A stretch of DNA of 64,000 nt from Fimbriimonadales bacterium. GTDB taxonomy: Bacteria; Armatimonadota; Fimbriimonadia; Fimbriimonadales; GBS-DC. Within the stretch, counting starts at the first letter, position 1. Every line of letters starts with the position of its first letter. The translations under genes were made by a program, and so were the position numbers. Positions 16,989 through 64,000 of the stretch are shown here, piece by piece. The notes under the pieces were generated by a model. It saw only the letters and a list, made by a program, of their open reading frames with translations, was not told the DNA's origin and did not search any database. The stretch spans positions 1,329,221 to 1,393,220 of the forward strand of contig AP024673.1 of the NCBI GenBank assembly GCA_025998675.1. The letters run 5' to 3'.

Positions 16989-17992
16989 TCCGTCGCCTCC
17001 AGTTGCGCCATGCGAAAAGTCGTTGGGTCAAGAAAGGCGTCCACCACCTGCGGGTCGAACTGCTGTTCGCGTTCGGCGCGCAGCGCTTCGATCGCCTGCT
17101 CGTGCGAGAGAGCAGGTCGATAGGGGCGGTCGTTGGTCATGGCGTCGTAGGCGTCCACAACGGCGACGATGCGCCCCCAGAGCGGTATCTGCTCGCCCCG
17201 TAGCCCCTGCGGGTAGCCGTTGCCGTCCCAGCGTTCGTGATGGGTAAGCGCGATGGTCTGCGCCATCTGAATCACGGGATAGACGCATCCCTCCAGAATG
17301 CGCGCGCCGATAATAGTGTGCTGGCGCATGATGTCCCACTCTTCATGAGTGAGCGGCGCGGGCTTGCGCAAAATCGCGTCGGGCACGCCGATTTTGCCCA
17401 CATCGTGCAGGGGCGCGGCATGTCGCAGTTGGAACAAAAGCTCCTCGTCCAGCCCCAGCACGCGCCCGATTTGCTCGCTGAGCCGCCCGACGCGCAGGAT
17501 GTGCTGTCCCGTGAGGTCGTCGCGGTACTCGGCGGCGCGCGCCAGTCGCTCCAGCTCGCGCGCCCGCGACCGATACAACCGACGCATCTCCAGATAGTTG
17601 CGAATGCGCAGCTGCGCCTCCGTAATATCGAAGGGCTTGTTCAAAAAGTCCGACGCGCCCGCCGCCAGCGCGCTGTGCTTGACCGCAGGCGCCATGTCCG
17701 CCGTCAACACAATCACGGGGATAATCTCGTCTGGATAGCTCATACGCAGGCGTCGAATCACAATCCCGCTGTCGTCAGCCCCCAGATGCCAGTCCAGCAG
17801 CACCAGATCAGGGCGTTCACGAGTCAACAGATTAATCGCCTCGAGCGCACTCCCTGCAGTCAGCACGTGCGTATAGCCCGCCTCGCGCAACAGAATCTCC
17901 ATAAACTCCCGAGCGCTTGGCTCATCATCCACAACCAAAATCCTACCCTCATAAGAGCGATGACCCTTGAACATACGCCCACCACCAATCAC
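16976..17992 (-). CDS. Response regulator with HD-GYP output domain
   Basis: 338 residues. Receiver domain 16-132 with phospho-acceptor Asp67 (LVLLDWH) and Lys119 (LNKPF). Then an HD-GYP domain with HDVGKIGVPD (His196-Asp197) and HHERWDGNGYPQGL, intact for cyclic di-GMP phosphodiesterase activity. The likely role is phosphorylation-controlled c-di-GMP breakdown. The start is a GTG, 11 bases after AGGAGGT, or ATG 17974 inside it. No histidine kinase is nearby; ruvX overlaps its 3' end. Confidence 0.9.
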   Translation of the reverse strand: MIGGGRMFKGHRSYEGRILVVDDEPSAREFMEILLREAGYTHVLTAGSALEAINLLTRERPDLVLLDWHLGADDSGIVIRRLRMSYPDEIIPVIVLTADMAPAVKHSALAAGASDFLNKPFDITEAQLRIRNYLEMRRLYRSRARELERLARAAEYRDDLTGQHILRVGRLSEQIGRVLGLDEELLFQLRHAAPLHDVGKIGVPDAILRKPAPLTHEEWDIMRQHTIIGARILEGCVYPVIQMAQTIALTHHERWDGNGYPQGLRGEQIPLWGRIVAVVDAYDAMTNDRPYRPALSHEQAIEALRAEREQQFDPQVVDAFLDPTTFRMAQLEATESDT

Positions 17993-52048: not shown

Positions 52049-52546
52049 TCACCACAGCGCGACGCCCGCGAACACCGTCGTGTAGAGTTCGACCTGCGCC
52101 TCAATTGCGACCACCTCCAGTCGCGCAATTTTGAGGTTGCGGTCTTCCATCGCCTCTTCTGCCATCGCGGCAACCATCTCGTGCGCCTCGCGCTCAGTCA
52201 TGTAGCCCTCCGCCTCCATAATCACGCCGACGGCATGGGGGTCTGTGGGAAACGCCAGCGAGACGGCGGCGGCGATTGTGCGCTCGGCTTCGTCCGAACT
52301 GAACACGCCGTAAGCAATCGGCAGTAGACTTCCTTTAGGAACCTCTACCGCAGGGCGCAGCGCCACGCTAGGGGGCAAAATGCTCGACACACGCAGCAGG
52401 TTATAATCGGCAAAGCCTGCCTGACGCAACGCACGGTCAAATGACACCAGTTCGAACGCCGAAACGCCGACGCCTGCGCCCGCCGTGCAGTGGCGCGCCA
52501 GACGCAGCAGCGGCGACGCAGTCGGTACATCCCTGACCTCGTACAT
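52049..52546 (-). CDS. pdaD: Pyruvoyl-dependent arginine decarboxylase
   Basis: 165 residues, the size of the archaeal/chlamydial proenzyme. SFDRALRQAGFADYNLLRVSSILPPS contains the self-cleavage site at Ser54-Ser55, after which Ser55 becomes the pyruvoyl group; GSLLPIAYGVFSSDEAERTI and YMTEREAHEMVAAMAEEAM follow. Makes agmatine from arginine for polyamines. GGAGG 6-10 bases before ATG 52546 fixes the start; the longer frame would run into the adjacent repeat element. Confidence 0.92.
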   Translation of the reverse strand: MYEVRDVPTASPLLRLARHCTAGAGVGVSAFELVSFDRALRQAGFADYNLLRVSSILPPSVALRPAVEVPKGSLLPIAYGVFSSDEAERTIAAAVSLAFPTDPHAVGVIMEAEGYMTEREAHEMVAAMAEEAMEDRNLKIARLEVVAIEAQVELYTTVFAGVALW

Positions 52547-52580
52547 AGCCTGCCTCCAGAAACGGTTGTCGTGTATTTTT

Positions 52581-52733
52581 ATACCAATCAGTGAGTCAGA
52601 CCGCGTAATTGCCTTGCACCTACACATGCAGAGGCGTGCCTTTGTCCGCATCACGCTACTATGGAGTGCTGAAGCGGTAGCTTCAGCACTCCATAAATCG
52701 ACGCTTTACGAATGATGACTCACCGATTGGTAT
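52581..52733. repeat. MITE-like element, TACCAATC family, copy 3
   Basis: Terminal inverted repeats ATACCAATCAGTGAGTCA (52581-52598) and TGACTCACCGATTGGTAT (52716-52733). A 16-bp perfect stem TATGGAGTGCTGAAGC (52660-52675) with its complement (52680-52695) around GGTA is the same GGAGTGCTGAAGC module found in the TAAGTGTC family. Nothing else is seen in the 216-bp gap. Confidence 0.88.
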
Positions 52734-54704: not shown

Positions 54705-55403
54705 CTAAAACTGGGAGCCGCCCAGCACCGCGCCGAGGATAATCGCAAATAGGGTCACGGCGGCGCGTTCACGCTTGCGGTCTACACGGCGCGGCTCCTG
54801 CGGCTGGGTTGGTTGCTCCACTGGGGGCGCGAGACGCTCACGTACCGCCGCGCCTACTTTCTGAGCGACATCTGCCACTGCCGCGATGCGCGCGCGATTC
54901 ACATCTTCATCGTCGGAGCCTAACCGCGCGCGTCCCGACTCCGCCACCGAGACAATCACCTCGCCTGTGCGTACATCGATCAGGTCGCCGCTAAGGGTGA
55001 TAATCGCCTCACGGGTATTGGGGTCGTAGCTGAACTCCTCGATGCGACCGGCGAACGCAAGGTCCACATCCAGCAATGCGCCCACACGCGCCGCCCGCCA
55101 TGTGCCGTCCGCCTCGCGCTCGTTGAACGGCGGATTCAGACGGTCGCGACGAATGCGGTTCTCTTCGATGGCGCGCGTCACGGACGGGTTCGTCTCACGA
55201 AAGCGCAGCACATACACGCCGGGAATCTCTTTCAACTGGGCGTAGAGGGCGTTGAGCGCCTCCGTATTGACATTAAAATCCTCGGTCGGCTGCACCGCTG
55301 CTCCCTGCGCGAACGGGAACAGCACCAGCTCGCGCGTTTGCGCAGCAGCCAGTCCGAACGACAGACACCCGGCAATTGCCGCTATCCAGAAAGTTCTCAC
55401 CAT
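54705..55403 (-). CDS. Secreted CsgG-like periplasmic/lipid-side protein
   Basis: 232 residues. Signal peptide MVRTFWIAAIAGCLSFGLAAAQ. ELVLFPFAQGAAVQPTEDFN, ALLDVDLAFAGRIEEF, AIITLSGDLIDVRTGEVIVSV and AAVADVAQKVGAAVRERLAP follow the layout of the CsgG/FlgO-type domain, which in curli systems forms the outer-membrane secretion pore. It ends with a hydrophobic segment (VTLFAIILGAVLGGS). GGAGG precedes the ATG. In the same run as a larger CsgG-like protein at 61171. Confidence 0.65.
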   Translation of the reverse strand: MVRTFWIAAIAGCLSFGLAAAQTRELVLFPFAQGAAVQPTEDFNVNTEALNALYAQLKEIPGVYVLRFRETNPSVTRAIEENRIRRDRLNPPFNEREADGTWRAARVGALLDVDLAFAGRIEEFSYDPNTREAIITLSGDLIDVRTGEVIVSVAESGRARLGSDDEDVNRARIAAVADVAQKVGAAVRERLAPPVEQPTQPQEPRRVDRKRERAAVTLFAIILGAVLGGSQF

Positions 55404-55451: not shown

Positions 55452-58148
55452 TTAGCGGGTCAGCACCAGCGGACGCACCGCGCGCGCGGTCTGACCATCT
55501 TCAGTGCGCGCTTCCACCTGCACCTGATAGGTTCCGGGCGGGACGGCGCGTCCCTGATCGTCGCGCAGGTTCCACGAGACGGTGTTGACGCCGCGGGTCG
55601 CTGCGCGCCCCCGATGCAGGTTAGCAATCGTGCGCCCATCGTTGCCCAGAATCTGGATGCTGGTCTGCGCGTTGTCCGCCAGCACATACGAGATGGACAC
55701 ACTACTGACGCCGCGCCCCGCGCTGCCCACATTCACGCTGGTGATGAGCGCGCCCGTGCGCGCCGCGCGCTCCACAGTCAGTTGCAGGCGCGTGCGCCCT
55801 GTGGACACGAAGCGATACTCAGGCGTGGCGCGCAGATCGACTGTGCGCCCGGTATTCAGGTCGGTCAGGCGCAGGCGATAGCCTGATGGCACTGTGTTCA
55901 GGTTCGGGAAGGTGAGCGTCACTTCCTCGCCAGACGCCGCCTCCACCAGCAGGTCGAACTGCTGGCGATTGGCGAGCGGGCGAATCTCCTGCATCAGCGC
56001 CGCGCCTGTGCCCGATTTGAGGATGACCAGGTTCACCGGTCGGTCAGGGAGCGGCGTCGGCGGCTCCTCGATGTCGCCCGCACTGCGTCCGCTGCTCACG
56101 CCGATAAAGTTCTGGGTGTCTGCGCCGCGCGCCGTTCGCGCCACAATCTGCAGGCGCCAGTCATTGGGCAGGTTTGGACGCTCCTCTGCAGAGCGATTAA
56201 TCACGCCACCGAAACCAGTTCCGGGCAGGAACACAGGCGGGTAGATGAACTCGATGTCTTCGTTGGTTTTGATCCAGTAGCCCCGATGCGGCAGCAGCGG
56301 CGTGTTGGGGTCGGAGGTGAACTTATACTCGCGCGTGAACTCGTCCCAGTAGTAGAGGACGCCGCGAATCACCCCGCGTTGCGCCGCCTCGAAGAAGCTG
56401 ATGCTGCGCGACGGGTCGCTGGCAGGCACAATCACCACCTGCCCCAGCACAAGCGGATAGGGATAGGGGTTTCCAATCTGATTCCAGCCGCGCTTAAGGG
56501 GCAGCGGCGTGCTGGCGTTGAACACATTGTCGGGGAACTGCAGAGTAGTGGTGTCATACAGGGCAACCGTTGCGTCGCCGGGCAGGAAGAGCCAGAAGCC
56601 CTGACCAGGCTGAATGGTGTCTATCGTCTCGTACAGCTCGCGTTCGGGATTCCAGCGCTTTGCCTGGTATGCGCCGGGCAGGTTCAGCACCTCATCCAGC
56701 GAACTGGTCGTTGTGAAGGGGATAGAAACGATCTGGAATCCCGACTCCAGTTTGCGGTTCGCAGTTGCAGAGATGAGAATGGTGCGCGACACGGACTTTG
56801 TGGGCGCTGGAGGCGCCTGTACCGAGACGCGGAAGGTCACGAACCCCACTGTGGTTGGGTCTGCCACCACACGCCACCGCAACGGCGCAGTTTGCCCGGG
56901 CGAGAGGCGTGCAATCGTACGGGTGCGCGTCTCCCCTGACGCGAGCGAGACGCCCGAAGGCAACGACAGGTCCACCGACACATTCGTCAGGTCAATCTCG
57001 CGTCCAACGACGAAATACTGGTTGGTGACATTCGCCACAATCTCGAATTGCCCGCCATTTGCAAGCTGTGAGAGATCTTCCGAGTCAGGCTCCACGACGG
57101 GCAACGCCTCGATGCCCACCGCCACAGGCGGTTGCACATCCAGATCCACAGGGGTTAGCGTCACATAGAAGACATACTCGCGCTCCTGACCGGGCGCAAA
57201 ATTGCGGGCGTTGACGAACAGGTTAATGGCGACATCGCTGATGAACGCATCGGGGAACAGTGTCGGCTCCCAGATTGTCGTGCCCTGCACAAAGAACCAG
57301 CTGCCGATGACCAGACGGTCGATGGAGGTCTGGTCTTCGAAGCCCTTGACAGGGCGCAGCAGGTATCGCGAGGAGCCCGCGAGGTTGCCGCGCCCCAGAT
57401 AGAACTCGATGGCGTTGGGAATCTGAACCCCGCGCAGCTCCGTCTGGGTTCGGACAGGGCGCTGCCCCTGCACATAGACATAGGGCGGCCGCGACGCGCC
57501 GTTGCGGTCGAAGCCCTCTTCTACGCCCGCCTCCACATCCGACGCCAGTCGGAGCGCGAGCGAAGCGGGCGTGTCGCCGTTGTTGCGCACACGCAGGCTG
57601 ATACGCGCGGCAGACTGAATGAGGTCAATTCGCAGGTCCGTGTCCCAGCCTTGCACATTCCAGATGCGGCGGATGTAGAACCCGCTCGCGCCGCGCCACG
57701 CCTGGTCGAAAGTGGGGGTGGGACCGCCTTCACCTCCCCAGACGAAGGTCTCGGTCTGCCCCTCGCGTTGCGCCTGCATGGTGATATACATCCCGCCGGG
57801 ATAAGCGCCCCACGGATAGCCCGATGTGAGCGCTATCCCGCGATCGCCCAGCAGCGTGTTGCCGCCGGAGGTTCCCAGCTGGATGCTCCCTTCTGCAGGG
57901 CGGGTGGTACAGGTTGCATTCTCCACGGGGAAACAACCCGTAAGCCATGTGACGGTTCCACCCAGTCCGAGAGTAGCGCCCAGCACGCCGTTATCCACAG
58001 AGAGCGCGGCATAGTCGTCGCTTACGGGGTCCTGGTTATCCGGGCAACCACATGGTTGTCCGGGACCGGGCTGATAGCTCCCGCCTTGCGCGAAGGCGAA
58101 CCCTGCCGCTATGCTACTGCACAAAATCGCTGCTATCCATCGTTTCAT
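55452..58148 (-). CDS. Large secreted surface protein with C-terminal FlgD-like domain
   Basis: 898 residues. Signal peptide MKRWIAAILCSSIAAGFAFA. Residues 20-330 are an unassigned beta-rich domain; 370-460 resembles a bacterial Ig/CARDB-like module (VSVDLSLPSGVSLASGETRT). Around 510-570 lies LPLKRGWNQIGNPYPYPL, a module shared with the subtilase and the protein at the right edge. The last 80 residues (SIQILGNDGRTIANL, NTVSWNLRDDQGRAVPPGTY, VRPLVLTR) are a FlgD-type Ig domain, used by several phyla as a surface-sorting tail. Starts 18 bp after the subtilase. Confidence 0.8.
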   Translation of the reverse strand: MKRWIAAILCSSIAAGFAFAQGGSYQPGPGQPCGCPDNQDPVSDDYAALSVDNGVLGATLGLGGTVTWLTGCFPVENATCTTRPAEGSIQLGTSGGNTLLGDRGIALTSGYPWGAYPGGMYITMQAQREGQTETFVWGGEGGPTPTFDQAWRGASGFYIRRIWNVQGWDTDLRIDLIQSAARISLRVRNNGDTPASLALRLASDVEAGVEEGFDRNGASRPPYVYVQGQRPVRTQTELRGVQIPNAIEFYLGRGNLAGSSRYLLRPVKGFEDQTSIDRLVIGSWFFVQGTTIWEPTLFPDAFISDVAINLFVNARNFAPGQEREYVFYVTLTPVDLDVQPPVAVGIEALPVVEPDSEDLSQLANGGQFEIVANVTNQYFVVGREIDLTNVSVDLSLPSGVSLASGETRTRTIARLSPGQTAPLRWRVVADPTTVGFVTFRVSVQAPPAPTKSVSRTILISATANRKLESGFQIVSIPFTTTSSLDEVLNLPGAYQAKRWNPERELYETIDTIQPGQGFWLFLPGDATVALYDTTTLQFPDNVFNASTPLPLKRGWNQIGNPYPYPLVLGQVVIVPASDPSRSISFFEAAQRGVIRGVLYYWDEFTREYKFTSDPNTPLLPHRGYWIKTNEDIEFIYPPVFLPGTGFGGVINRSAEERPNLPNDWRLQIVARTARGADTQNFIGVSSGRSAGDIEEPPTPLPDRPVNLVILKSGTGAALMQEIRPLANRQQFDLLVEAASGEEVTLTFPNLNTVPSGYRLRLTDLNTGRTVDLRATPEYRFVSTGRTRLQLTVERAARTGALITSVNVGSAGRGVSSVSISYVLADNAQTSIQILGNDGRTIANLHRGRAATRGVNTVSWNLRDDQGRAVPPGTYQVQVEARTEDGQTARAVRPLVLTR

Positions 58149-58166
58149 AATCCGTTGCCTCCTTCC

Positions 58167-61088
58167 TTAGCGGGCGACCACAATCGGTCGTACCACACGC
58201 GCGACCTCGCCCTCGTCGCCAGTGGCGATAATCTGCACCTGATAGGCGCCTGGGGGCACTGCTATCCCGGTATCGGTGCGCCCATTCCAGGTCGCGGTGC
58301 TGACGCCCGACGATCGAGTCCCTGCCTGTAGACGCGCGACGGTCTTGCCCGTTGCATCCTGAACCAGCACCTGCACCGCTGCTTCGTTGTTCAGCGCGTA
58401 CTGGATGGCGAACTGGTTGCCACGCGACTGTGTAATGGACACATTCGTCACCTGCAGGCGGCTGGCGCGCGCTGGCTGCGCCTCTATGGCGAACCGTCGA
58501 CGGCTGGTCTCATCGGTGCGGAAGCGATGCGAGCTGTTCTGGAGCATCGGGATGCGCTCGCCAGTCGTCTGGTCAATGAGTACCAGCCGCGTTCCGCGCG
58601 GGACGGGCAATTCCTGGCTCCACTGGAGGGTGACCTCCGCGTCCGGCTGGTCGGTGACCACCTCGATCTCCCAGCGCTGGGCGCGTCGGGTGTTGCGCCG
58701 GAGGTCTTGCGCCAGAGCGGCGCGCGTGCGCGCGTCTATGATGTGCAGCGCGACATACGATTGGAACGCCGGCGGCTTCTCCACACTGCCTGCCCCCGCC
58801 TGCTCGTCGACCTGTGAGGCGGTTCCGATGAAGTTGTTGGAGTCCTCGCGGTCGCCGCTGCGTGCGATCAGGCGCAAGAGCCAGCCATCGGACTGAGTGG
58901 GCGCGACGCGCGGCGTCTCCTCGGACTGGCTGCGCAGGCTGCCCACAGGCGGCACTACGAGCGTGCATGGCTTGAGCGCTTTGACCCAGTGCGCTTGCCA
59001 GGCAATCAGTTCGCCCAGTGGGGCGGTACGCCAGGTATATTCGCCGGTCAGCGGGATGTAGCGGTAGATTTGCAGTCGAATGTATTCGCGTTCCGCAGCT
59101 TCCTGAAGGCTCAGGCGCTGCACGACGCCGCCCGCGCCAACCACCTCGACCTCACACGCCGCCCACGGCACATTGAAGGGGAACGGGTTGCCAATCATGT
59201 TCCAGCCTTCCTGCAGCGGAATCAGGTAGGCAGTGTTGACATCCACCTGCTCATCGCCCAGAATGAAGGTGGGCGCGGTGGTGCGCAGGAAGTAGCCCAG
59301 CCCGCGAGGCGGCGTGGGGGTGTTCGAACCGTCGGGACGCACCGCCACACCTGGAGGGTTGAAGCTCGCGCGCGGGTCTTTACTGGCGGCGGAGTAGCGG
59401 GCGTATGCGCCCTCTGTGGGCAGGTAGCGCGCCAGGATTGCGTCGTTACCGAATACCTCCTCAGGAGTCAGCGAGATGGCGTAAGGGGTGGAGAACATCG
59501 CCAGCCCGGCGTTCTGCACCCACGCTTTCGCAATCACGCGGGTGGAGCCGCTGCCGCTGACGCCATCCTGTCCGACTGCCTCAACGGAGATGGTATGGCG
59601 TCCTTCGCCCGGCAGGGCGACCACGAAGTCAAGCGTGATCGTTTTCTGCGACGGATTGACTACTGCCGATGGCTCCCACTGGCTGCGGGGCAGCGGGTCG
59701 CCGTTGAGACGCACATTCAAAATGTTCGCCGGGTCGTTGTTCAGCACGCGGCGCACCACGACCTGTACGCGCACGAGCCGCGTGTCGATGGTTGTGCCCG
59801 ACACGGGTTGCACAAACGCCACATTCACGCCGCCAACGCCGCGCAGCGCCTGGTCGACATTGATAATCCCCCAGCCCAGTTCAGGGTCGGGTACATTGCG
59901 CCCGCGCGGATCCGCAGTTTCTTTGAGCGCCACAACCGCTTCAGGCTCCACAGTGTTCGCATCGTGGCGTGGCGCGCCTGCAGAAATCACCAGCGCCACC
60001 GCCGCCGCTACATAGGGCCCCGAATAAGAGGTGCCCTGCACATAGTCGTACTGGTTGGAGGTAGAAGCGGTTGTAATCACGCCGTCGAAGTAGCTGCTTT
60101 CCTGGTCGCCGCCGGGCGCCGCGAGATCGATACTGCCATAGTTCGAGTACGACGCTTTGGCGCCCGTGCGCCCCACCGCAGAGACATTCACGACATTCTC
60201 ATAATTTGCTGGATAGCTGGGGATGTTCACATTGTCGTTGCCAGCAGAGGCGACGGGAACCACCCCGCGTCGGTAAATCTCCTGAATGAGCGCATTCGAC
60301 TGCTGCGAGAAGAAGTAGCCGCCGTAGCTCATGTTCAGCACATGGATCTGTGCGGCGTTATCAATCACATGCTGATAGGCTTCCAGGACATTTTCGGTGA
60401 ATAGCGGACCCAGTGGGCGTTGTGTGACCTTCAAGCCAACGATTTTCACATTTTCCCAGAGCAGTCCGGCGATTCCGATACCGTTGTTGGTAACGGCTGC
60501 TGCGACGCCCACGGTGGAGGTGCCGTGCGAGAAGCCGGCGCCTTCAGGGTCGATATTGTCATCAGGCGTATCAGCCGCGAAGTTGCGGGAGAGCGGATCG
60601 AACAAGCCTGCCAGATCGGGATGCGACCGCTGGAAGTTGTCGTCGATGAAGGCGACACGGATACCCGGCTGCCCTTTCTCGATGTCCCACGCCGCGGGCA
60701 TCTGCATCATCGTGAGCGCCCACTGCTCCGAAAAGAGCGGGTCGTTCGGAACATCGTGATAGCGCAGGATGTAGTGCGGCTCGATATACAGAACATCCGG
60801 GTGCGTTTCGAGGGTTTTCACGGCGTCCTGTACCTTCTGGAGCAGTGTCGCCGCCGCGACTCCCTGCTCGCGCAGGCGCAACACATAGGTGTCCTGCACG
60901 CGAATGGGGCGCGCGTCGGCGTTCACCGTACCTGCGACGGCACGCGCGGTATCAATCGTGCGTCCGGGTTTGAGGCGCACAATCATCTCGCCAGGTACCA
61001 CATCGTCTGGCGTCAACTGCGGCGCCTGCGCCCATGCGCCCTGCGCCGCTATCAACACTCCAAGCAGCCATAGCCACATCCGTCTCAT
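58167..61088 (-). CDS. Secreted subtilisin-like serine protease with C-terminal sorting-type domain
   Basis: 973 residues. Signal peptide MRRMWLWLLGVLIAAQGAWA; propeptide-like region 30-110 (GEMIVRLKPGRTIDTARAVA). S8 catalytic domain with Asp149 (AFIDDNF), His188 (SHGTSTVGVAA), Asn284 (SAGNDN) and Ser354 (GTSYSGPYVAAAVAL). Then Ig-like region 430-530, the IPLQEGWNMIGNPFPF module near 640, and a FlgD-like tail ending VVRPIVVAR. An extracellular or cell-bound protease, possibly processing its cluster partners. Confidence 0.92.
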   Translation of the reverse strand: MRRMWLWLLGVLIAAQGAWAQAPQLTPDDVVPGEMIVRLKPGRTIDTARAVAGTVNADARPIRVQDTYVLRLREQGVAAATLLQKVQDAVKTLETHPDVLYIEPHYILRYHDVPNDPLFSEQWALTMMQMPAAWDIEKGQPGIRVAFIDDNFQRSHPDLAGLFDPLSRNFAADTPDDNIDPEGAGFSHGTSTVGVAAAVTNNGIGIAGLLWENVKIVGLKVTQRPLGPLFTENVLEAYQHVIDNAAQIHVLNMSYGGYFFSQQSNALIQEIYRRGVVPVASAGNDNVNIPSYPANYENVVNVSAVGRTGAKASYSNYGSIDLAAPGGDQESSYFDGVITTASTSNQYDYVQGTSYSGPYVAAAVALVISAGAPRHDANTVEPEAVVALKETADPRGRNVPDPELGWGIINVDQALRGVGGVNVAFVQPVSGTTIDTRLVRVQVVVRRVLNNDPANILNVRLNGDPLPRSQWEPSAVVNPSQKTITLDFVVALPGEGRHTISVEAVGQDGVSGSGSTRVIAKAWVQNAGLAMFSTPYAISLTPEEVFGNDAILARYLPTEGAYARYSAASKDPRASFNPPGVAVRPDGSNTPTPPRGLGYFLRTTAPTFILGDEQVDVNTAYLIPLQEGWNMIGNPFPFNVPWAACEVEVVGAGGVVQRLSLQEAAEREYIRLQIYRYIPLTGEYTWRTAPLGELIAWQAHWVKALKPCTLVVPPVGSLRSQSEETPRVAPTQSDGWLLRLIARSGDREDSNNFIGTASQVDEQAGAGSVEKPPAFQSYVALHIIDARTRAALAQDLRRNTRRAQRWEIEVVTDQPDAEVTLQWSQELPVPRGTRLVLIDQTTGERIPMLQNSSHRFRTDETSRRRFAIEAQPARASRLQVTNVSITQSRGNQFAIQYALNNEAAVQVLVQDATGKTVARLQAGTRSSGVSTATWNGRTDTGIAVPPGAYQVQIIATGDEGEVARVVRPIVVAR

Positions 61089-61132
61089 CGGCTGTTCCTC
61101 CCGATAATTGCTGTCTATAAAGACGATTCATC

Positions 61133-61162
61133 GGGGCGCAGGTTTCCTCTACCCTGCGCCCC
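61133..61162 (-). terminator. Hairpin after the CsgG-like gene
   Basis: Ten-bp stem GGGGCGCAGG/CCTGCGCCCC with a ten-base loop in the 82-bp gap before the subtilase gene; no T tract. Confidence 0.5.
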
Positions 61163-61170
61163 AGAGCGCC

Positions 61171-62946
61171 CTACGGGCTGGGCGGCAGCTCCTGCGTGGT
61201 GAACTCGAACGGTCGGCTCCACACATAGCGCAGACCGCCGGGTCCGGGGATCGGTCCCGGATTGTCTCCCAGATTGCGCGAACCCACGCGCCAGTAGAGC
61301 GTGACGCGCTGTCCGGTCAGCCCCAGCCGGTTGAGCAATCCTGTCTCCAGATTGATCCGCTCGGTGGAGACGGGCGAACCGCCCACTGCTGTGGAGAGAA
61401 TCTCGGGCGACACGAAGGTCCGGTTCCGATCCTGGAAGGTCGGGTCAAGCGAGACCTCCACGCGATAGGCGTTCGCGCCCTCTGCCGCCAGCCAGCTGAA
61501 GCGTACATCTTTGGGGTCGACATCCTCACTGCGCTGGACTGGGGTCAGCAACTGCACGGGCAGCAGCACCGTTGCCTGACCGGAGCGCACGCGATCCGAG
61601 AGTTTGTACAGAATCACCGTCTGACCCTCGGCGTCGATGCGCTCGCGATACACCAGGGCGAGTTGGTAGGTGTACGAGCGTCCTGCGGCGACGCCCGGTG
61701 CGGGGTCAATCTCTTCGAGTTCCAGGTCCTCGCTGCCTTCGCGCGGCAGGCTGGCATAGCTAAAGGTACGCGCCACCGTGGTGTCCACAAAGAAGTTCTG
61801 ATTGCCAGGGGTGACGCCCACAGGCTGCAGATTGCCGTTCCCGTCGGTGCCGATAAAGTCCGAGCGGAAGATTTGCCACTGGATGGTGTCGGGCGCGCTC
61901 TTGGCGAAGAGGGTGGTTTTCCACGACACGCGCACGAACGGCTCGAAGTTGCCATCAGCGCCCGCCTCCGCCAGCACACTCTGAACGGGGGTATTGCCGC
62001 CCGACGAGCCGCGCGCCACACCGAAGGCAATCAGCCCGATGATGAGAATGGGTCCGAGCGCGCGGAGCAGTTTGTTGCCCTCGCCGCGCTGTCGGGGACG
62101 CTCGGTGACCACGCGCCCCGCCTTGACCTCGACGGTGGGCACGCGGAACACCGCGCGGGCACGATCTTCGCTCTGGATACCCCGCCCGAAGTCGATGATT
62201 TCGCCCACCGCGTCGCTATCGGAGACCTGGGTGACGCGGATTCGTCCGACTTCCTCGCCGCGCCGCACGACAATCATCTCCATGCCGGGCTGCAATCCGC
62301 CGCGGATGCCGCGATTCAGCAAAACTTCCTGCCCCGCGCGCGTGGTCAGGATGGTCGCTTCGGGGATGGTGTAGTTGTTGATGATACGCACGGCTTCGAA
62401 CGCGGCGTTGCGAATCGCTTCCTGGACAAGGGTGTCGTCGTCGCCTGTGTAGCCGGGGCGTCGGTTGCTGAAGCCTGTAGCGACCGCGCCGTTAATCGGC
62501 TCGCCCGAGGCGATATCGATGACGCGCACGGTGATGACCACCTGCGCCTGCTTGGGGCTGCCCACGAAGTTCACCGCGTTCACTTCGCCCGTGATAAGCG
62601 ATTCCGTTTGCAGCGTGCGTCCCAGTCGCAGGAACCCGGTTTTGTCCAGGGGCAGCGCCAGGTCAAGGTCGCGCAGCTGCTGTTCGATTTCGCCGCGCGC
62701 CAGCACTTCGAACTTGCCTGATTTTTGATACTCTCCCGCCACCGCGTCGGTCGCCGCGCGGGCGATACTGGCGCCGCCGTAGCCGCTCTTGTTCTCGAAG
62801 TTCAGCACTGCCACGCGCGGCAGTTGCACCAGCTGGGCGTAGGCGCGCGCAGCGCCCAGTGGGTAGAGCAGTCCCACCGCGAGCATGCTCAGCACGCCGA
62901 GATACGCTGTGCGCGTTGTCCAAGTTCGTCTCATCCGTGTTTTCAC
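61171..62946 (-). CDS. CsgG-domain protein with fibronectin-like C-terminus
   Basis: 591 residues. Signal region (YLGVLSMLAVGLLYPLGA). Residues 40-200 form a CsgG domain: RVAVLNFENKSGYGGASIAR, KFEVLARGEIEQQLRDLDLA, ITGEVNAVNFVGSPKQAQVVI. Residues 205-280 look like a stand-alone beta domain (QPGMEMIVVRRGEEVGRIRV). One membrane helix (ALGPILIIGLIAFGVAR, about 298-315) separates it from two fibronectin-III-like repeats (FVRVSWKTTLFA..., VRFSWLAAEGANAYRVEVSL). GTG start after AAGGAGG. Probably part of a secretion channel or surface assembly for the neighbouring proteins. Confidence 0.8.
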   Translation of the reverse strand: MKTRMRRTWTTRTAYLGVLSMLAVGLLYPLGAARAYAQLVQLPRVAVLNFENKSGYGGASIARAATDAVAGEYQKSGKFEVLARGEIEQQLRDLDLALPLDKTGFLRLGRTLQTESLITGEVNAVNFVGSPKQAQVVITVRVIDIASGEPINGAVATGFSNRRPGYTGDDDTLVQEAIRNAAFEAVRIINNYTIPEATILTTRAGQEVLLNRGIRGGLQPGMEMIVVRRGEEVGRIRVTQVSDSDAVGEIIDFGRGIQSEDRARAVFRVPTVEVKAGRVVTERPRQRGEGNKLLRALGPILIIGLIAFGVARGSSGGNTPVQSVLAEAGADGNFEPFVRVSWKTTLFAKSAPDTIQWQIFRSDFIGTDGNGNLQPVGVTPGNQNFFVDTTVARTFSYASLPREGSEDLELEEIDPAPGVAAGRSYTYQLALVYRERIDAEGQTVILYKLSDRVRSGQATVLLPVQLLTPVQRSEDVDPKDVRFSWLAAEGANAYRVEVSLDPTFQDRNRTFVSPEILSTAVGGSPVSTERINLETGLLNRLGLTGQRVTLYWRVGSRNLGDNPGPIPGPGGLRYVWSRPFEFTTQELPPSP

Positions 62947-62975
62947 CCTGATTGCTCCTCCTTCATAGTCTGTTC

Positions 62976-64000
62976 TCAGCGCGTGAGCACCAGCGGCGCG
63001 GTTGCGCGAGCAACCTGACCGTCTTCGCTCACGGCTCGAATCTCGATGGTGTAGGCGCCGGGCGGCAGCGCGACGCCGCTCTGGTCGCGTCCGTCCCAGG
63101 TGGCTTGCTGCACGCCGCTGCGAGTCGCCTGGTTGAGCAGTTGGCGCACGAGCTTACCACCCGACAGAACATTCACCTGCACGGTCGCATCGCCTGTCAG
63201 CTGGAAGGCGACGGTGTGCTGGGCGCCGCGCCCTGTCTGTACCTGCACCTGCTGGATGCGCAGCAGCCCGCCGCTGGACGCCATTTCGAGGCGGAATCGG
63301 CTCACGCCGCTGGCGTTGGTGCGGAAGGTGTACGCGCCCGTTGTGCGCAGGTAGCGTCGCTCGCCCGTTTCGAGGTTCACCAGCACGAGGTTCGCGGCGC
63401 GCGGCAGCTGCTGCGCGTCGGGCCAGTGCAGGCTCACTTCGCGGTTCGGTTGGCTGGTCTCCACCGTGAACTCCCAGCTTGCGCTGCGAGTGGCGGGCTG
63501 GATGTCCACGCCGTACACGCCGCTCTGTGCGCCCCAGCTCAGGCGCGGCAGGCTGATATGCACATAGTCTGCACCGACAGGCGGCGGCTTGAGCAGGTCG
63601 TGCGCGTGGTCATAGCCCGGGGTCGCGCTGCGCGACACACCGATGTACGCGCGATCCTTCAGGTCACCCGACTGAACCTCCAGCGTCAATCGCCAGCCGC
63701 CCGCGTCGGTGTTCGCGCTTCGGCTGGACGCGCTGGCAGCCGCGGCAGTCGGCGGGATAATCAGCGTCGTCGCGCGGTAGGCGTACACCCAGTAGCCTTC
63801 CCAGACCTTCATGCGGGTGGTCGCGGCGTAGCTGCCGAACGAGTAGCCCCACAGCGCGTTCGCCACGATACCCTTGCCCACTGCTGTCGGCAGAGAGACG
63901 GCAGTGCTGGTGTCCGGATCGATGAACTGCACCTGGCTCCAGTTCACATCGAAGGTGAACGGGTTGCCAATCAGGTTCCAGCCGACCTGCAGCGGAATCT
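62976..64000 (-). CDS. Surface protein, C-terminal part only (partial)
   Basis: The last 340 residues are in the window; the frame stays open to the right edge, reading IPLQVGWNLIGNPFTFDVNW there, so an internal GTG near 63947 is not the start. It carries the same GW-IGNPF module, a TL-EVQ-SGDLKDRAYIGVSR middle also seen in its two paralogues, and the FlgD-like tail (ATWDGRDQSGVALPPGAY, APLVLTR). Stops 29 bp before the CsgG-domain gene. What stands in front of these shared modules is outside the window. Confidence 0.8.
   Translation of the reverse strand, partial: IPLQVGWNLIGNPFTFDVNWSQVQFIDPDTSTAVSLPTAVGKGIVANALWGYSFGSYAATTRMKVWEGYWVYAYRATTLIIPPTAAAASASSRSANTDAGGWRLTLEVQSGDLKDRAYIGVSRSATPGYDHAHDLLKPPPVGADYVHISLPRLSWGAQSGVYGVDIQPATRSASWEFTVETSQPNREVSLHWPDAQQLPRAANLVLVNLETGERRYLRTTGAYTFRTNASGVSRFRLEMASSGGLLRIQQVQVQTGRGAQHTVAFQLTGDATVQVNVLSGGKLVRQLLNQATRSGVQQATWDGRDQSGVALPPGAYTIEIRAVSEDGQVARATAPLVLTR

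Follow-up and report, generated by a model that had tools for sequence, protein, structure and literature searches.

Type IX secretion-type C-terminal tails linked to two envelope genes in Armatimonadota without a detectable SprA channel

The 64,000-nucleotide stretch of DNA analyzed here, referred to as the window, spans C1:1329221-1393220 in a 2.99-Mb genome that consists of one contig and belongs to a Fimbriimonadales relative (Armatimonadota). It carries six consecutive genes on the minus strand, separated by small gaps and named in their order A-B-C-D-E-F, of which A, C and D encode proteins with the same C-terminal tail; in this tail the nearest named records are 80-93% identical. Tails of this kind were found throughout the phylum, share descent with the type-A sorting tails of the type IX secretion system (T9SS), and lie with genes B and F in a phylum in which no SprA channel was detected. 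Every part has a recognisable relative; what is new is that tails of T9SS type occur in linkage with B and F in the absence of the T9SS channel. We tentatively read the locus as an Armatimonadota surface-display operon, in which B and F would act as envelope partners and tailed proteins would be displayed independently of a T9SS. This finding at the level of the phylum is more interesting than the idea of the first-pass annotation, a secretion channel built from CsgG-like proteins. Open-access literature searches retrieved no paper on this tail or gene cluster.

Three surface proteins share a large C-terminal module

The tail-bearing genes and their modules are located as follows (window positions unless a locus is named; aa, amino acids):

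62976..64000, minus strand: gene A, protein at the right edge of the window, 3' part (340 of about 1,900 aa lie in the window); the tail fills this part and begins past the edge
L007:12197-17998, minus strand: full open reading frame (ORF) of gene A; PD40 propeller repeats and four CarboxypepD_reg domains, both beyond the window, then the tail
58167..61088, minus strand: gene C, a 973-aa subtilase (PF00082) with the tail; on inspection its D, H and S motifs are intact
58170..59546, minus strand: tail module of C, C-terminal
55452..58148, minus strand: gene D, an 898-aa surface protein; beta-rich N-terminal region, possible NEW3 domain, tail
55455..56786, minus strand: tail module of D, C-terminal

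The motif GW-x-IGNP(F/Y) is present as GWNQIGNPY in D, GWNMIGNPF in C and GWNLIGNPF in A, and the proteins end in RPLVLTR, RPIVVAR and APLVLTR, respectively. Pairwise blastp comparisons align the tails over 371-454 aa with E-values of 5e-46 (C/D), 2e-48 (A/C) and 2e-31 (A/D), and the final immunoglobulin (Ig)-type domain, FlgD_ig (PF13860), scores above the Pfam gathering score of 27 in all three (32.8, 52.0 and 41.8 bits). The module measures 370-460 aa. A degenerate GW-type repeat comes first, then the GW-x-IGNP repeat, a stretch rich in beta structure and finally FlgD_ig; the module is conserved as a whole and not only in its last 80 aa. The shared motif and FlgD-type Ig end reported by the first-pass annotation were confirmed, and the tail unit is larger than described there. 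Its statement that the N-termini are unrelated was likewise borne out, since blastp among the four tailed proteins of the genome matches the tails only. The homology of the full module rules out chance resemblance, or FlgD itself, as explanation of the tail.

The fourth of these proteins, G1020 (1,020 aa), is encoded at C1:546.7 kb, and no further strong copy (E <0.005) was detected in the 2.99-Mb genome. At L008:5773-9737 the gene of G1020 precedes that of H301, a small protein resembling CarbopepD_reg, and the pair is kept in loci L017 and L044; it apparently represents a second tailed module, apart from B and F.

The position and the last residue of the module are strongly constrained. In most Armatimonadota copies the blast match reaches the C-terminal residue, and in all it ends at most 13 residues before it. 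Of 79 Armatimonadota tails, 75 end in R, compared to 37 of 251 other ORFs; these 79 tails are related and do not count as 79 independent events. An export-like N-terminal segment was found in 66 of 69 tailed ORFs and in 74 of 155 background ORFs, in agreement with the earlier assumption that tailed proteins are secreted, and at least two of the three tailed ORFs without such a segment look like over-extended starts.

The tail is related to the T9SS type-A sorting domain

A search across genomes with a name located the module throughout the Armatimonadota as well as in Bacteroidota, KSB1, WOR-3, Eisenbacteria, Latescibacterota, Neomarinimicrobiota and Calditrichota; the pattern used favoured copies with GWN-x-IG and W-N/D-G-R motifs and thus covers part of the host range. 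Within the Armatimonadota 238 of 251 genomes have the tail, the counts per genome being lower bounds (seven candidates were scored in each). Comparison of 35 Armatimonadota tails with 24 tails from the Fibrobacterota-Chlorobiota-Bacteroidota (FCB) group by hhalign gave an alignment of 398 columns with an E-value of 1.4e-66, pointing to common descent with T9SS type-A tails. The profile of the T9SS type-A sorting domain, TIGR04183, matches all 24 FCB tails and, weakly, 16 of the 35 Armatimonadota tails. In the window the subtilase C scores 13.6 bits, below the cut-off of 23 bits, and A and D give no match.

T9SS secretion is reported to require the lysines of motif E and the last 13 residues of the cargo, and motifs B, D and E have been modelled as contacting the shuttle PorV (PMC10202324). 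Motif D (G-x-Y) is present in 34 and a basic terminal residue (K/R, motif E) in all of the 35 Armatimonadota tails, whereas the YPNPF motif (motif B) occurs in none of them, compared to 17 of the 24 FCB tails. Armatimonadota tailed proteins resemble T9SS type-A cargo (TIGR04183/PF18962) in a homologous tail of about 400 columns, its Ig-type last domain and strictly C-terminal position, motif D, the terminal K/R and a Sec-type N-terminus. They differ from it in the lack of SprA in the phylum, the sub-threshold TIGR04183 scores of the window tails, the missing motif B and the linkage to B and F.

Tandem tailed subtilases are encoded in other Armatimonadota (L037, L041 and L046), apparently apart from the B-F cluster.

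No T9SS channel was detected in Armatimonadota

The SprA/Sov channel profile TIGR04189, used with tail-bearing FCB genomes as positive control, scored above cut-off in 22 of 23 of them, the remaining one showing a divergent match to an ORF of 2,034 aa; proteins of 1,771-2,296 aa are found by this profile even in very distant FCB phyla. Above cut-off it matched none of the 251 Armatimonadota genomes, the host genome included. The sole similarity in this phylum is a fragment of 60-100 residues at profile positions of about 590-690, and we rejected these fragments as SprA, as they are shared-domain matches in unrelated ORFs of 366-1,461 aa. The PorV profile (NF033709) has no match in the host genome and scores above cut-off in one of the 251 genomes. 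For the motor protein GldM/PorM (TIGR03517) there was no match in the 251 genomes, but no positive control gave a match either.

The PorV-family gene above cut-off belongs to genome G125 (L112:5478-6383; 174 bits); it is located away from F, and transfer or contamination is possible. Directly downstream of F, family f5 has the gene of a distant PorV-family barrel, which scores 30-52 bits and thereby stays below cut-off (L111:8053-8958 in G016, L109:1182-2255 in G001 and apparently also G030, C257 from position 17578).

If the phylum possessed a genuine T9SS that had diverged strongly, its SprA lying beyond the reach of the profile, the tails would be ordinary T9SS signals. Retention of motif D and of the terminal K/R agrees with this, as do the distant PorV-family barrels in part of the phylum, one of them above cut-off (G125), and their position directly downstream of F in G001, G016 and apparently G030. 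The SprA profile, however, detects very distant FCB proteins and yet yields only fragments in Armatimonadota, PorV is missing from the host genome, and GldM is matched in 0 of 251 genomes, the latter with a positive control lacking. Such a system is improbable in our view.

Genes B and F are near-universal and linked to the tails

The remaining genes of the cluster are (window positions):

61171..62946, minus strand: gene B, 591 aa, phylum-wide; after the signal peptide a CsgG/PelC/TolB_N-fold domain at residues 40-193 and a FlgT_C/TsaP-like domain at 195-282, then a hydrophobic helix at 294-308 and fibronectin-type C-terminal domains
54705..55403, minus strand: gene E, 232 aa, with a signal peptide, a domain akin to the first domain of B and a C-terminal hydrophobic segment
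52763..54748, minus strand: gene F, 661 aa, phylum-wide; a signal peptide and an invasin-type Ig domain (Big_1/Invasin_D3) precede an OstA/LptD-like beta domain and the outer-membrane beta-barrel

Of the 251 genomes, 241 contain B and 242 contain F (177 and 173, respectively, of the 179 good genomes). Since tail, B and F are all near-universal in the phylum, their presence or absence is of little use as a test; the association within the phylum was dropped and linkage was used instead. Among the 115 genomes compared, 91 have their best B and F on one contig, always within 20 kb of each other (median 5.4 kb); in the remaining 24 they are on different contigs. Among the strong tails listed, 120 of 134 are at most 16 kb from B or F, and D is the tail protein most frequently found immediately before F. 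Chthonomonas calidirosea, Fimbriimonadaceae, WS1 and others retain the gene order B-(C)-D-F, with identities of 25-35%; the cluster of Fimbriimonadaceae is B-D-F, without the subtilase and without A.

These data substantiate the expected co-occurrence of the tail with the cluster, which holds across the phylum. The first-pass annotation had described tailed genes alternating with two CsgG-domain genes and a barrel; the genes are interleaved, but the order does not alternate strictly. Its own test, whether the tail also turns up in cytoplasmic proteins or in genomes lacking CsgG-like genes, has a mixed outcome. The tail is absent from cytoplasmic proteins, but it is present in genomes of other phyla without a clear B gene, where a T9SS is present.

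A precedent for a linkage of cargo and barrel genes is T9SS type-B cargo, which clusters with its PorP/SprF barrel partner (PMC10202324). As there, a surface-protein gene adjoins an outer-membrane barrel gene; unlike there, the barrel F resembles LptD and carries an Ig domain, and the Armatimonadota tail is related to type A.

Gene B has a CsgG-type fold and resembles PelC and FlgT

B and E had been called CsgG-domain proteins. Against PF03783 (CsgG) B scores 16.9 bits as a single match (cut-off 20.8) and 21.6 bits when the pieces are summed, covering positions 8-141 of 210, and E scores 12.8 bits, below cut-off. E is related to the first domain of B (hhalign E-value 5e-11). In a predicted model of B (mean predicted local distance difference test score, pLDDT, 82), the best structural match of the first domain is PelC (Z 13.6, 2.8 Å, 124 residues); CsgG (Z 12.7, 3.6 Å), TolB and LpoB come behind it. 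Domains 1 and 2 together match FlgT in Foldseek (E-value 3e-11), and the sequence profile of B matches TsaP (E-value 1.2e-5) and LpoB. The first domain is PelC-sized (about 154 residues) and the single-chain model is without the extra membrane hairpins of CsgG type. A conserved lipobox cysteine was not found in B and 18 homologues (19 sequences), which have an AxA-Q-type signal peptidase I end instead.

The earlier call is thus weaker than it was put, although B and E are relatives. Judged from the predicted model, "CsgG-domain" is correct as a fold for B and wrong as a functional assignment: the defining channel features were either absent or not seen; B is best modelled as a PelC/FlgT/CsgG-fold protein and not as a CsgG channel. 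With CsgG it has the fold of the first domain in common, and it differs in the partial profile match, the missing lipobox, the lack of any sign of membrane hairpins and the added FlgT_C-like and fibronectin domains. PelC, FlgT and TsaP, ring-type outer-membrane accessory proteins, provide the best matches of B, but no pel, H-ring or pilus gene is present in the B cluster, and B has a fibronectin C-terminus.

The subtilase had been proposed as processor of the system. C scores 127.4 bits against PF00082, and the motifs IDD, HGT and GTS are present in the sequence. Since the subtilase is itself tailed and is dispensable in the cluster, as its absence from the B-D-F cluster of Fimbriimonadaceae shows, a processing role is unsupported; it is best read as a tailed, optional surface protein and not as a needed processor.

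The complete version of the first-pass annotation, with the tail as sorting signal, B and E as CsgG-like channel and the subtilase as processing enzyme, can draw on the CsgG fold in B, on the relation of E to B and on the conserved cluster. Given that PelC is an at least equally good match, that the PF03783 match is partial, that a conserved lipobox cysteine is missing and added hairpins are not in evidence, that B carries a helix and fibronectin domains instead, and that Fimbriimonadaceae lack the subtilase in the cluster, we regard it as very improbable.

Gene F is predicted to encode an LptD-like barrel

The predicted model of F (mean pLDDT 78.7) comprises an Ig domain of invasin type, a beta domain resembling OstA and a barrel with an aromatic C-terminus, which confirms the outer-membrane barrel annotated earlier. 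The 14 best Foldseek matches of this model are all full-length LptD (E-values down to 4e-16); the sequence profile of F matches LptD with an E-value of 0.07. As modelled, F would share with LptD a beta domain of OstA type ahead of a barrel, but it fails PF04453 (LptD), its barrel is smaller, and it has the N-terminal invasin-type Ig domain. We do not favour F as the LptD of the phylum: PF04453 matches are in other ORFs, and an ordinary LptD-like gene is found in a relative. Because PF04453 is never above cut-off in the phylum and such a gene exists elsewhere, F is taken as an LptD-like relative; from its model it is a plausible outer-membrane pore of the cluster.

The ordinary LptD-like ORF lies beside an ABC-2-type permease in G206 (L106:1195-3249). 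It is probably the LptD of the phylum, which PF04453 fails to detect in almost every genome.

A tentative model of surface display

In the surface-display reading, A, C and D would be exported by Sec and carry a relative of the T9SS type-A sorting or attachment tail. After export an outer-membrane complex of F and B would either retain the tail or let it through. F would contribute the LptD-like barrel with its periplasmic beta domain and invasin-type Ig domain, and B (in this family together with E) a PelC/FlgT-like protein of a ring-forming type. B and F would recognise the tail, which would anchor or sort the proteins to the surface without a T9SS. The dedicated secretion-and-attachment system of the first-pass annotation survives here in part: export, the strictly C-terminal tail, its homology to T9SS tails and the linkage to B and F argue for such a system, while the CsgG channel and the processor are not supported.

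Several observations weigh against this reading. Contact of the tail with B or F is deduced from linkage, which may reflect shared regulation only, and a hidden T9SS is excluded solely by sequence comparison. Four tailed proteins in the host genome are few for a sorting pathway, and the tail may be merely an adhesive Ig module. For F, the TM-scores to LptD are low (about 0.3), VIA-align ranks TonB-type barrels first, which we read as generic barrel similarity, and PF04453 is above cut-off in none of the 251 genomes, with no F gene among its weak matches. Finally, in nine genomes of families f22 and f31 no tail was detected although B and F are kept. In G225 (L113, C58) F and B are adjacent, D is lost and no tail was found in the genome, which makes this a naturally cargo-free cluster. 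B and F must thus have work independent of tails; therefore, they have a core function and the tails are their frequent companions.

Nearly as likely as surface display is a purely structural role, a possibility we take seriously while doubting it somewhat. The tail would be a structural or adhesive Ig-type end module without sorting role, kept after loss of a T9SS or transfer from T9SS-bearing ancestors, and the genes would be grouped as builders of one outer surface structure that is secreted by another route. The loss of motif B, modelled as a PorV contact (PMC10202324), fits this explanation, as do the low number of tails in the host genome, the conservation of the whole module beyond its last 80 aa and the genomes with B and F without tails. 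A purely structural domain, however, need not be strictly C-terminal behind unrelated N-termini, nor is it required to retain the terminal R/K found in almost all copies.

The distributions of tail and T9SS are reported to coincide with few exceptions (PMC10202324), a rule that is broken by phylum-wide T9SS-homologous tails without SprA. Either the tails use other machinery, or the tail had an older role that was later taken over by the T9SS. B and F, near-universal in Armatimonadota, uncharacterised and linked to the tails, are obvious candidates for study. That they amount, together with E, to an unrecognised outer-membrane route for export or attachment, dependent on a C-terminal signal, in which F, B and E replace the T9SS channel and shuttle for T9SS-homologous tails, is unlikely on present data, though less so than a divergent T9SS.

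Downstream of F, on the same strand, a gene for a pyruvoyl-dependent arginine decarboxylase is located at window positions 52049-52654; we judged it to be unrelated to the cluster.

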